The notes beneath the pieces were generated by a model. That model saw only the letters and a program-made list of their open reading frames with translations. It did not search any database and was not told where the DNA came from. From assembly GCA_001797815.1 (NCBI GenBank), contig MGQK01000053.1, positions 109,597 to 118,408 on the forward strand: 8,812 nucleotides of DNA, given 5' to 3'. Each line of letters starts with the position of its first letter. Within the stretch, counting starts at the first letter, position 1. Shown here piece by piece: positions 3,001-4,921 of this stretch. A program made the position numbers and the translations under genes. The stretch comes from Deltaproteobacteria bacterium RBG_13_61_14. Lineage in GTDB: Bacteria > RBG-13-61-14.

Positions 3001-3035
3001 GCCTAAAGCCCAAAGCCTAATGCCTAATGCCTCCT
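3001..3035. repeat. Heptamer array C (GCCTAAT, four to five units)
   Basis: Units at 3001 (GCCTAAA), 3008 (GCCCAAA), 3015 and 3022 (GCCTAAT), with a decayed fifth (GCCTCCT) at 3029. It ends 8 bp before the -35 hexamer of the promoter for the 3174 gene. Confidence 0.85.
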
Positions 3036-3042
3036 CCGGTCC

Positions 3043-3071
3043 TTGACAACCCTACTCCATCATGCAATAAT
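3043..3071 (+). promoter_or_regulatory. Strong sigma-70-like promoter for the ORF at 3174
   Basis: A perfect TTGACA (3043-3048) is separated by 17 bp from AATAAT (3066-3071, five of six). Transcription would start near 3078, leaving a leader of about 96 nt. A 7-bp hairpin, TCCGGCC (3073-3079) with GGCCGGA (3086-3092), would lie at the 5' end of the transcript. Confidence 0.6.
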
Positions 3072-3130
3072 CTCCGGCCATGGAAGGCCGGATCAAACCC
3101 GAAGCCAAAAGCGAGCTGAACATTACAATG

Positions 3131-3149
3131 AGTATGGTGTCCCCAAATT
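3131..3149. repeat. Left inverted repeat flanking the 3174 ORF
   Basis: ATGGTGTCCCC (3134-3144), extended imperfectly to AGTATGGTGTCCCCAAATT, is exactly inverted relative to GGGGACACCAT at 3968-3978. It lies in the leader of the gene, about 30 bp before its start codon. Confidence 0.75.
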
Positions 3150-3173
3150 TCCCGCACTCCTCAAGGCAAGAAG

Positions 3174-3941
3174 ATGCAAGGAATCAATTTTCAGAGAACC
3201 TACCGGCTGGATCAGGCCTACAATCAAGTTAAACACCAAGCCGCAAAATTTTTGAAGGATTATCTCCACGATCCGGGCCTGTTCATTTTTGATGATCTCA
3301 GCACAAGCGTTACCTTTACCTCAGAGCGTCTGATCCCCCTTCGCGCCAGCGGCCGGCCTTGCGTGATGCTGATCTTCTCCAATCCCCATCCCCATTCGAT
3401 TCGGCAAGGCATGTTCCTGTCCCCCAACCGCCGCAACCTGCCCAATTCATTTTGGCAAACAATGTCAGAAGCGGGGTGGTTCAATATTTACGCAAGCAAT
3501 TTGGCCCCGGCACAACTTCGAGACATTTTTCTTCGAGTCGAATACGACAGCCCCTTCGAGCTGATTTTTTATTGCTATTATGCTTTCCCCTCTGATTTTC
3601 CCGAAGACCTTCCCAAGATTTTTAGCCAGGAGTTTTTTCGGAATGTTATTGAGCTGGCCGCAAAAAAGGAATTTCTCAAAACCTTGACCCGAGAAAAAGT
3701 CCGGGCGGTAGTCACCTTTAACAAAGGGGTATTCAACCGCATCGCAAAAAAGAAAATAACTCGCTATCTCAAAATTCTGAACGACCGCGGTTGCATTCGA
3801 AGCGAAATTGCAGAATTACAAGGGATGGTCCCTATCCATTTAACTTATCCCACCGGATGGCGCTACCACCGCAATGCCCGTGCTCTCAAACAAGATAATC
3901 TCAAACAGATCAAGCAGATGATTCTCGATAACCTCACTTAA
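3174..3941 (+). CDS. Uncharacterised protein, possibly uracil-DNA-glycosylase-like
   Basis: I do not firmly recognise this 255-aa protein. It is soluble, without signal peptide or membrane segment. Notable stretches are VMLIFSNPHPHSIRQGMFLS (64-83), SFWQTMSEAGWFNIY (92-106), VVTFNKGVFN (179-188) and HLTYPTGWRYHRN (222-234). The Asn-Pro-His-Pro stretch near a Gly-x-Phe-Leu-Ser, a hydrophobic strand ending FNKG and a C-terminal YPTG-His pattern loosely recall uracil-DNA-glycosylase superfamily proteins; this is a guess from memory of motif layout. ATG 3174 is the only good start after the in-frame TGA at 3129; AAGG lies 7 nt upstream. The gene opposes all its neighbours, is visibly richer in A and T, and has its own promoter (3043-3071). 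The flanking inverted repeats at 3131-3149 and 3962-3986 suggest acquisition as a unit. Real gene: likely. Function: unknown. Confidence 0.7.
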   Translation: MQGINFQRTYRLDQAYNQVKHQAAKFLKDYLHDPGLFIFDDLSTSVTFTSERLIPLRASGRPCVMLIFSNPHPHSIRQGMFLSPNRRNLPNSFWQTMSEAGWFNIYASNLAPAQLRDIFLRVEYDSPFELIFYCYYAFPSDFPEDLPKIFSQEFFRNVIELAAKKEFLKTLTREKVRAVVTFNKGVFNRIAKKKITRYLKILNDRGCIRSEIAELQGMVPIHLTYPTGWRYHRNARALKQDNLKQIKQMILDNLT

Positions 3942-3961
3942 TCCGACAGCTTGAATTCGTG

Positions 3962-3986
3962 AATTCGGGGGACACCATCCTTAATT
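3962..3986. repeat. Right inverted repeat flanking the 3174 ORF
   Basis: GGGGACACCAT (3968-3978) inside AATTC-GGGGGACACCAT-CCTTAATT is the exact 11-bp inverse of 3134-3144. It begins about 20 bp after the stop codon, just past a GAATTCGTGAATTC direct repeat. Confidence 0.75.
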
Positions 3987-4022
3987 CAGTTGATTAGGCA
4001 TTAAACGGGAAATAAAAAGGAT

Positions 4023-4038
4023 GACAGGCAGGAATGCC
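4023..4038. repeat. Partial copy of the GACAGGCA palindrome
   Basis: GACAGGCAGGAATGCC matches the left three quarters of the hairpin at 4106-4125 with one substitution and then diverges, so only the inner GGCA/TGCC stem remains. Confidence 0.55.
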
Positions 4039-4076: not shown

Positions 4077-4105
4077 GAAAGCAGTGGAAAGTGATTCAAA
4101 TGGTT

Positions 4106-4125
4106 GACAGGCAAGAATGCCTGTC
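4106..4125. repeat. Perfect 8-bp hairpin palindrome GACAGGCA/TGCCTGTC
   Basis: GACAGGCA (4106-4113) and TGCCTGTC (4118-4125) are exact inverted repeats around AGAA, followed by CCCCCTT. There is no U-tract. It looks like a short dispersed palindromic repeat; a partial copy lies at 4023-4038. Confidence 0.75.
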
Positions 4126-4207: not shown

Positions 4208-4251
4208 AAGAGGAAATTGTTCCAAGTTCAGCTTGAAGAGGTTTTCCCCAC

Positions 4252-4279
4252 CTGCGACCTACGACCTACGACCTACGAA
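4252..4279. repeat. Heptamer array E (CTACGAC, four units)
   Basis: CTGCGAC at 4252, CTACGAC at 4259 and 4266, CTACGAA at 4273. Six bases after it the hexamer array at 4286 begins. Confidence 0.9.
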
Positions 4280-4285
4280 GATTCC

Positions 4286-4311
4286 GTTCACGTTCACGTT
4301 CACGTTCAAGG
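4286..4311. repeat. Hexamer array (GTTCAC, four units)
   Basis: Three exact GTTCAC units (4286, 4292, 4298) and a fourth GTTCAA (4304) followed by GG. It parallels the minus-strand hexamers at 2025-2042, including the closing GTTCAAGG. Confidence 0.9.
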
Positions 4312-4329
4312 GTAATAAATTTCTTCCCC

Positions 4330-4357
4330 TGCCTACTGCCTACTATCTACTGCCTAC
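4330..4357. repeat. Heptamer array F (TGCCTAC, four units)
   Basis: TGCCTAC at 4330, 4337 and 4351, with TATCTAC at 4344. The array overlaps the end of the isomerase remnant: the stop codon and last residues of that fragment (4343-4357) are made of array sequence. Confidence 0.9.
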
Positions 4358-4434
4358 TGTTTTCAGATGCCTTTCCACCATCTCGATCCGATCATTGCCC
4401 CAGAACATCTCATCGCCCACGAAAAGGAATTCCC
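4343..4434 (-). pseudogene. C-terminal remnant of a 2-hydroxychromene-2-carboxylate isomerase-like gene
   Basis: On the minus strand this reads EFLFVGDEMFWGNDRIEMVE, then RHLKTVGSR and a TAG at 4345-4343. It matches the C-terminal end of the intact gene at 4983-5576 (FFVGEEMFWGNDRIEMVERF). The central 38 bp (4371-4408) are identical to 5008-5045. Outside that block the aligned codons differ only at third positions (GTG/GTC, GAT/GAG, GAG/GAA), so the fragment came from a coding allele that had diverged under selection. It has no start codon and abuts the brnA stop. Its last codons run into heptamer array F. It is best explained as a leftover of a recombination or insertion event that placed brnTA beside the intact gene. 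Confidence 0.8.
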
Positions 4435-4662
4435 TTACTCATACTTGGAGGCGTAGAGTTCCAGGACCCGGCGGATCATTTTTTGGTAGGGGGTTTTGTG
4501 TTTTTTCGCCTGTTTTTTGAAGAAGGCCACGCTGGTTTTGCTCAGGTTGAGGGTGACTTTGACGGCGTCGGGTTTGAGGACGAGTTGTTCCGGCGGAGGC
4601 AGGAAATCCCGGACCACTTCCATGGCCAGGGGCTTATCGGTGTAGCGAATTTTCTTTTTCAT
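4435..4662 (-). CDS. brnA: BrnA-family (ribbon-helix-helix) antitoxin
   Basis: This 75-aa antitoxin should bind and neutralise the BrnT toxin encoded just upstream and, as in characterised BrnTA pairs, repress their shared promoter. The first 30 residues (MKKKIRYTDKPLAMEVVRDF and on) would be the toxin-contacting part. The rest, VTLNLSKTSVAFFKKQAKKH and the PYQKMIRRVLELYASKYE tail, is the DNA-binding ribbon-helix-helix domain seen in this antitoxin family. ATG 4662 has an AAGGAAGGGAAG ribosome binding site just upstream and lies inside the toxin gene, overlapping its last 29 bp, so translation is probably coupled. The stop codon at 4435 directly abuts the isomerase remnant. Family assignment is by sequence pattern; close CopG-like antitoxins are the alternative name. 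Confidence 0.88.
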   Translation of the reverse strand: MKKKIRYTDKPLAMEVVRDFLPPPEQLVLKPDAVKVTLNLSKTSVAFFKKQAKKHKTPYQKMIRRVLELYASKYE

Positions 4663-4921
4663 AAACTTCCCTTCCTTTCCGCCAATAGCCGGCGCCGATA
4701 ATCCGGATCACATCTTCACGATAAGTGAAGCGGACCGTAAGAATCCCGCCCTCGACTTCGCCCAGGCAGTAATAGCGAGGCTCAGCTCCGCTGTGCTTCA
4801 GGTCCCGCGCGATCACACGCCGCGGGTCCAAAAAGGCCATTTGGGCCAGGGCGAAGGCAACGCCGTGCTTGCGCCGATTGGCGGCGTCTTTTTTCTCGTC
4901 CCATTCAAAGCGAACGCCCAT
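4634..4921 (-). CDS. brnT: BrnT-family toxin (DUF497), predicted ribonuclease
   Basis: It is predicted to be the toxin of a type II toxin-antitoxin pair; BrnT proteins have a RelE-like fold and block translation by cutting RNA. The 95-aa protein has the family signature FEWDEKKDAANRRKHGVAF at 4-22, an FLDP segment at 30-33, then EPRYYCLGEVEGGILTVRFT (47-66), REDVIRIIGAG and the C-terminal WRKGREVYE. The Lys-His-Gly and the later Arg and Glu residues, which matter in the family, are present, so the toxin looks intact. ATG 4921 is the only in-frame start after a TAA about 30 bp upstream; GAAGG touches it, so initiation may be inefficient. It is the first gene of the pair, 61 bp after the isomerase stop, with operator-like repeats in that gap. 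Confidence 0.9.
   Translation of the reverse strand: MGVRFEWDEKKDAANRRKHGVAFALAQMAFLDPRRVIARDLKHSGAEPRYYCLGEVEGGILTVRFTYREDVIRIIGAGYWRKGREVYEKENSLHR

Follow-up and report, generated by a model that had tools for sequence, protein, structure and literature searches.

An AT-Rich Gene Lies Between Two Inverted Repeats

The window, i.e., the whole stretch of 8,812 nucleotides analyzed here, carries at positions 3174-3941 (+) a coding sequence for P0001, a UDG-superfamily-like protein of 255 aa recognized through its homologues and fold matches. The gene runs opposite to purF, a BrnT/BrnA-like pair, and the genes for DsbA, SpoT, rpoZ, and gmk, confirming the original prediction that it opposes its neighbours from purF through gmk. 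It is also more AT-rich than these 62-66% GC genes, as had been claimed, with a GC content of 46.9% compared to 65.5% in purF, 65.7% in SpoT, 62.0% in DsbA, and 59.5% in the whole window. Between positions 3134 and 3978, P0001 is the sole gene. In our best reading of the sequence, the GC contrast and the restriction of its relatives to four Anaerolineae metagenome-assembled genomes (MAGs) point to a horizontally acquired single-gene islet.

The gene is enclosed by the exact inverted 11-bp copies ATGGTGTCCCC (3134-3144) and GGGGACACCAT (3968-3978), which lie well above chance for the window: shuffled windows contained 0.14 core matches with at most one mismatch, and two were reached in just 1 of 200 shuffles. 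The conserved unit spans 26 bp (AATTCGGGGGACACCATACTTAATTC) with a sharp boundary at either side, and the 11-bp arms are its cores. The left 26-bp repeat, at about 3125-3150 (-), has a degenerate outer half and scores 18.5 bits, while the right one, AATTCGGGGGACACCATCCTTAATTC, at about 3962-3987 (+), scores 42.6 bits; the best score in shuffled sequence was -2.0. Next to the right repeat, toward the gene, TGAATTCG occurs twice in tandem (3952-3967, +), the second copy extending over the initial 6 bp of the 26-bp repeat. The predicted 11-bp inverted repeat is therefore exact, but it is part of a longer repeat that belongs to a genome-wide family and is not unique to this gene.

A promoter between the repeats had also been proposed. 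The promoter-like TTGACA-17-AATAAT at 3043-3071 (+) is real and scores 11 of 12 (a mean of 1.3 promoter-like sites is expected by chance in shuffles), but it lies 62 bp from the left repeat on its outer side and is thus not carried by P0001 within the repeat pair. Since the start codon is only 29 bp away from the left core, this promoter, if used, starts transcription outside the unit.

Close to the islet, a BrnT-type toxin gene (PF04365, E=1.5e-22; 4634-4921, -) is followed by a short BrnA-like frame at about 4430-4660 (-), forming a toxin-antitoxin pair. The non-coding DNA at 2597-2680, 3001-3030, and 4250-4360 is rich in short tandem words, among them 21-bp CCCCATCCTGCACGGCAACCA units, GCCTAAT, CGACCTA, CGTTCA, and CTACTGC. 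Another dispersed repeat family is represented by GACAGGCAGGAATGCC, found twice in the window (4019-4038 and 4102-4121) and also adjoining L036:3589.

P0001 Is Predicted to Adopt a Uracil-DNA Glycosylase Fold

P0001 matched nothing in Pfam, NCBIfam, PHROGs, PADLOC (PADLOC-DB 2.0.0, 2023), or a PDB sequence search. No significant sequence or profile similarity was found to any of the UDG families tried, and hhalign of the P0001 family against UDG sequences was not significant at a Neff of only 1.8. PF03167 did not match P0001 either; the genome's only match to this family is another gene, at G000:C22. P0001 is therefore assigned by fold and not to the PF03167 family.

The AlphaFold2 model of P0001 is weak (pLDDT 54), and the first 33 of 217 Foldseek matches obtained with it all belong to the UDG superfamily (TDG, MUG, family 4 UDG, and UdgX). 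A 49%-identical homologue gave a better model (pLDDT 72, pTM 0.76), for which the first 30 structure matches were again all UDG-superfamily proteins, with probabilities up to 1.00; TDG and Thermus UDG aligned with this model over 151-176 residues at a Z of 8.2. Across Foldseek and VIA-align and both models, nearly all top rows were members of this superfamily, so that the structure search for a uracil-DNA glycosylase fold suggested in the original prediction had a positive outcome. These models indicate that P0001 very probably belongs to the UDG superfamily by fold, and that its family is a new divergent family within it.

Each of the three motifs that had looked catalytic contains invariant residues. 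NPHPHS (3381-3398, +) is the candidate UDG motif 1, in which N70, P71, H72, P73, and S75 are invariant. FNKG (3717-3728, +), with F182, N183, and K184 invariant, stands after a predicted core strand at residues 176-181. YPTGWRYH (3846-3869, +), the candidate motif 2, has P226, T227, G228, W229, and Y231 invariant and comes after a strand predicted at 220-224 in the weak P0001 model. Both NPHPHS and YPTGWRYH are thus largely invariant and each placed after a predicted strand. In an hhalign alignment that was not significant, the conserved NP of NPHPHS falls on the NP of GINPG in Escherichia coli Mug; by analogy to TDG/Mug, N70 is a candidate catalytic residue.

TDG/Mug (family 2) enzymes are the best structural matches, and the NP...S...G pattern of motif 1 and P-T/S-G of motif 2 resemble Mug. 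P0001 differs from them in showing no significant sequence similarity and no PF03167 match, and it is longer, with about 50 N-terminal residues mostly uncovered by the TDG/Mug matches.

Relatives of P0001 Are Rare and Lack the Flanking Repeats

Four relatives, nearly full length and 45-53% identical, were found in Anaerolineae MAGs. They are rare: the protein search matched 4 of 396 sampled Anaerolineae, one of them only partially. A fifth, truncated sequence (L019) retains LLLLGNPASHSVSAGMCF. Viral contigs, plasmids, and phages yielded no relative. None of the four relatives is flanked by the repeats, so that these are a feature of the present genome rather than of the gene family. The comparison of homologues proposed in the original prediction accordingly gave a mixed outcome: absence of flanking repeats at all four speaks against it, yet none of them is in a syntenic position.

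In L012, the homologue stands beside restriction-like genes encoding an SNF2 helicase, a NOV_C protein, and a methylase-like protein, and adjacent to a PARG-like gene. An ADP-ribosylglycohydrolase gene is adjacent to the homologue in L011; the hydrolase genes beside L011 and L012 belong to different families (PF03747, E=2e-79; PF10021, E=4e-44). The homologues in L009 and L010 are located among metabolic or unclear genes. Just upstream of the L010 homologue, a short frame (L010:4497-4820) without a Pfam match contains KVVILLHGKVL, which recalls a UDG core strand.

The Repeats Are of a Kind Found Around Y1 Transposases

The 4.7-Mb genome contains 62 copies of the 11-bp core and none of the reversed control. 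Three arrangements were seen: hairpin pairs, with the GGGG ends outermost and a distance of 29-49 bp from core to core; compact palindromes of 26 bp (GGGGACACCATnnnnATGGTGTCCCC); and solo sites. The first two arrangements are also situated between or inside native genes. Palindromes inside or at the edge of native ORFs were noted at L034:1441-1672 and L031:1809-1874 and in L023, L026, L027, and L032, with up to three within one gene in L034. The notion that a solo site is what remains of a hairpin pair after one half has decayed was rejected, as the second-half score on the outer side was no better than on the inner side. At solo sites, the 30 bp on the gene side are enriched in AATT (P=0.006). 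AATTC-word stutters stand right at the GGGG edge of the repeat, as TGAATTCG twice in the window and as GAATTCT twice and CAATTCG twice elsewhere.

The repeat sequence has no copy in genomes G001-G006, the GGGGACACCATACTTAATTC repeat family was not found in two genomes of the same order, and viral contigs and plasmids gave no match. As a word in the literature, the 11-bp core returned unrelated matches only. Di Nocera and colleagues described RAYT-like "TIRYT" genes with flanking inverted repeats that have GGGGWSAS in common and are dispersed as singles and dimers (PMC3733652). GGGGACAC matches this motif, published for repeats around IS200-like transposases (PMC3733652), and is hence a repeat of a known kind. 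Among the genome's 20 Y1_Tnp matches, the one at G000:C46:40554-40874 (L028:1513-2178) was the only repeat-bordered gene in the flanks examined. Together, the GGGGWSAS-type motif and the copies bordering a Y1_Tnp gene assign the repeats to the RAYT/TIRYT kind and support the earlier suggestion that repeats of this type accompany insertion-type elements.

As in the published "TIRtrons" (PMC3733652), a GGGGWSAS-type motif, dispersed dimers and singles, and a Y1_Tnp gene bordered by copies are present; unlike in TIRtrons, the outward pairs bound foreign cargo genes instead of the transposase. REPINs (PMC3116915) likewise consist of inverted short-repeat pairs forming hairpins, comparable to the +/- pairs 29-49 bp apart, and differ from the present family in its solo sites, which have no second half and stand at the edge of AT-rich islets.

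Outward-Facing Repeat Pairs Bound AT-Rich Islets

In tests of orientation and GC content devised after the pattern had been noticed, neighbouring sites 0.4-3 kb apart formed 11 outward-facing pairs, including that of the window, no inward-facing pair, and eight pairs in the same orientation (outward versus inward, P=0.001); the enclosed DNA was lower in GC than the flanks in 11 of 11 pairs (mean 39.0% versus 54.9%, P=0.001); and at 53 usable solo sites GC was 44.5% on the GGGG side versus 52.8% on the other side (P=1.5e-5), a contrast absent from hairpin pairs.

Genes enclosed by a pair, or lying on the GGGG side of a solo site, were regarded as cargo, with gene calls around repeat sites based on a rough codon model. 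The cargo includes a SIR2-domain protein with a PIN protein (L037), a CAP12-type TIR (L033), GmrSD_N plus FRG (L079), AIPR (L046), an SMC-like PDC-S06 protein (L054), an endonuclease/exonuclease/phosphatase-family protein (L086), a methyltransferase (L052), a carboxylesterase (L021), and small membrane or lipoprotein genes. Matches to defence models comprised SIR2, CAP12-type TIR, GmrSD_N (NsnA model), FRG/PDC-S15, AIPR/AbiU, and PDC-S06; in a small PADLOC control, ten native genes gave two matches, both generic. The best reading of these observations is that the genome has at least 11 repeat-bounded AT-rich islets including the one in the window, several of them with defence-like genes. On another contig, an ADP-ribosylglycohydrolase gene (L024:1-801, -; PF03747, E=2.5e-21) is located near another GGGGACACC site.

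From the AATTCG edge outward, sites resemble one another in small families over 50-300 bp, whereas the insides are unrelated. The solo sites L033:1849(+), L039:1710(-), and L046:1563(-), for example, have 244-300 bp of outward sequence in common at 90-95% identity, with unrelated inner sides. A simple cassette model does not predict such outward-running families; they may stem from insertion beside non-coding DNA that is itself repeated, or from foreign DNA having been captured at the repeat edge.

No flush target-site duplication was detected at any of the 11 pairs, unlike at a classical DDE transposon. IS200/605-type enzymes are not known to make target-site duplications. The search for empty sites returned none: junction-spanning matches were the sequence itself or short stretches over one repeat-type end. 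In the related genome G002, SpoT-rpoZ-gmk is kept, and within 20 kb around it purF, DsbA, and the BrnT gene were not found, so that G002 offers no empty-locus comparison. An autonomous copy was not found, nor is there a transposase gene between the inverted repeats of the window. An autonomous insertion sequence or TIRtron was ruled out, since P0001, the sole enclosed gene, has no transposase similarity; an integron gene cassette was ruled out as well, because the repeats in the window and at the ten sibling pairs are inverted and not in the same orientation.

A Possible Defence Glycosylase in a Repeat-Bounded Islet

Brig1 and Brig3, which belong to the UDG superfamily, protect E. coli against T-even phages by excising modified bases from the phage DNA (PMC11078745, PMC13160076). 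P0001 resembles them in fold, in size (Brig1 has 261 aa), and in its foreign setting (PMC11078745, PMC13160076); one of its four homologues is in a restriction-like island, and two have ADP-ribosyl hydrolase genes nearby. In contrast to them, the window gene stands alone between repeats, and the likeness is one of fold, size, and setting; no Brig entry appeared among the solved-structure matches of P0001. We consider the chances about even that the locus represents an acquired Brig-like defence glycosylase in a repeat-bounded islet. P0001 would most likely be a monofunctional DNA glycosylase, its closest folds being thymine-DNA glycosylase, Mug, and family 4 UDG; it would excise modified bases from the DNA of invading phages, and the resulting abasic sites would stop replication, as with Brig1 and Brig3. 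We infer this activity and substrate from the modelled fold. The defence role itself, judged from the setting, could equally well be right or wrong; it is suggested because of the foreign composition, the rarity, the defence-like cargo at sibling sites, and the neighbours in L012 and L011. The islet is bounded by two outward-facing 26-bp repeats of the type that surrounds Y1 (RAYT/TIRYT) transposases, and such islets may have been placed by a Y1 transposase acting in trans, a plausible mode of mobilization. Several observations count against this explanation: the lack of UDG sequence and PADLOC matches, the settings in L009 and L010, the homologues without repeats, the missing target duplication and empty site, the degenerate outer half of the left repeat, and the shared outer sequences. 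Overall, what the original prediction observed is partly confirmed and its interpretation partly supported, including the view that P0001 is an acquired, AT-rich passenger gene and not a transposase.

Concerning the repeats, it is quite conceivable, if somewhat short of probable, that ordinary RAYT/TIRYT repeats spread by themselves into loose intergenic DNA and came to flank a foreign gene already present, the inverted pair being a coincidence plus insertion preference and not the ends of a mobile unit. Hairpin pairs and palindromes among native genes, the common sequence running outward from sites, the repeat-free homologues, and the target duplication and empty site that were not found all agree with such self-spreading. 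However, random settling predicts neither the excess of outward pairs (11 versus 0) nor the lower GC inside all 11, and the solo sites have no second half and consistently point their GGGG end to the AT-rich side. Another reading, which we hold to be doubtful, is that foreign genes, often ones for defence, are moved singly by a RAYT/TIRYT-type Y1 (HUH) transposase, each as a non-autonomous cassette with 26-bp outward-facing ends. If so, the genome carries a dispersed antiviral-gene cassette system; that, jointly with this, the cargo of the window cassette is a new DNA glycosylase family is a similarly doubtful proposition.

Concerning the protein, P0001 might instead be a base-excision-repair glycosylase for uracil or mismatches, acquired as a spare repair enzyme without a defence role. 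The UDG-superfamily fold fits this, as does the fact that the genome's single PF03167 gene is a different one, but it is made unlikely by the very sparse distribution, by the position of P0001 as an AT-rich orphan whose sibling sites hold defence-like cargo, and by the restriction-like surroundings of the L012 homologue. More improbable still is that the family has ADP-ribosyl hydrolases as partners in acting on DNA that is ADP-ribosylated or glycosylated, where the hydrolase would trim the adduct and the glycosylase would remove the base. A hydrolase gene, each time of a different family, directly adjoins two of four homologues, and a gene predicted to encode an ADP-ribosyl glycohydrolase was likewise present on the brig3 fragment (PMC13160076); yet defence against T4(5hmC) did not require that gene (PMC13160076), the comparison covers four loci only, and no such gene adjoins P0001, its nearest analogue (L024) being at another repeat on another contig.

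To return to the defence glycosylase in a repeat-bounded islet, its meaning depends in part on the repeat pairs. RAYT-type transposases have long been regarded as domesticated and as spreading only tiny non-coding repeats. If the pairs are true unit ends, these enzymes would shuttle whole genes too, and the repeats could guide searches for unknown defence genes. Quite apart from the islets, the family of P0001 seems to add another divergent branch to the UDG-fold enzymes, one that, alongside Brig1-3, could target modified phage DNA.
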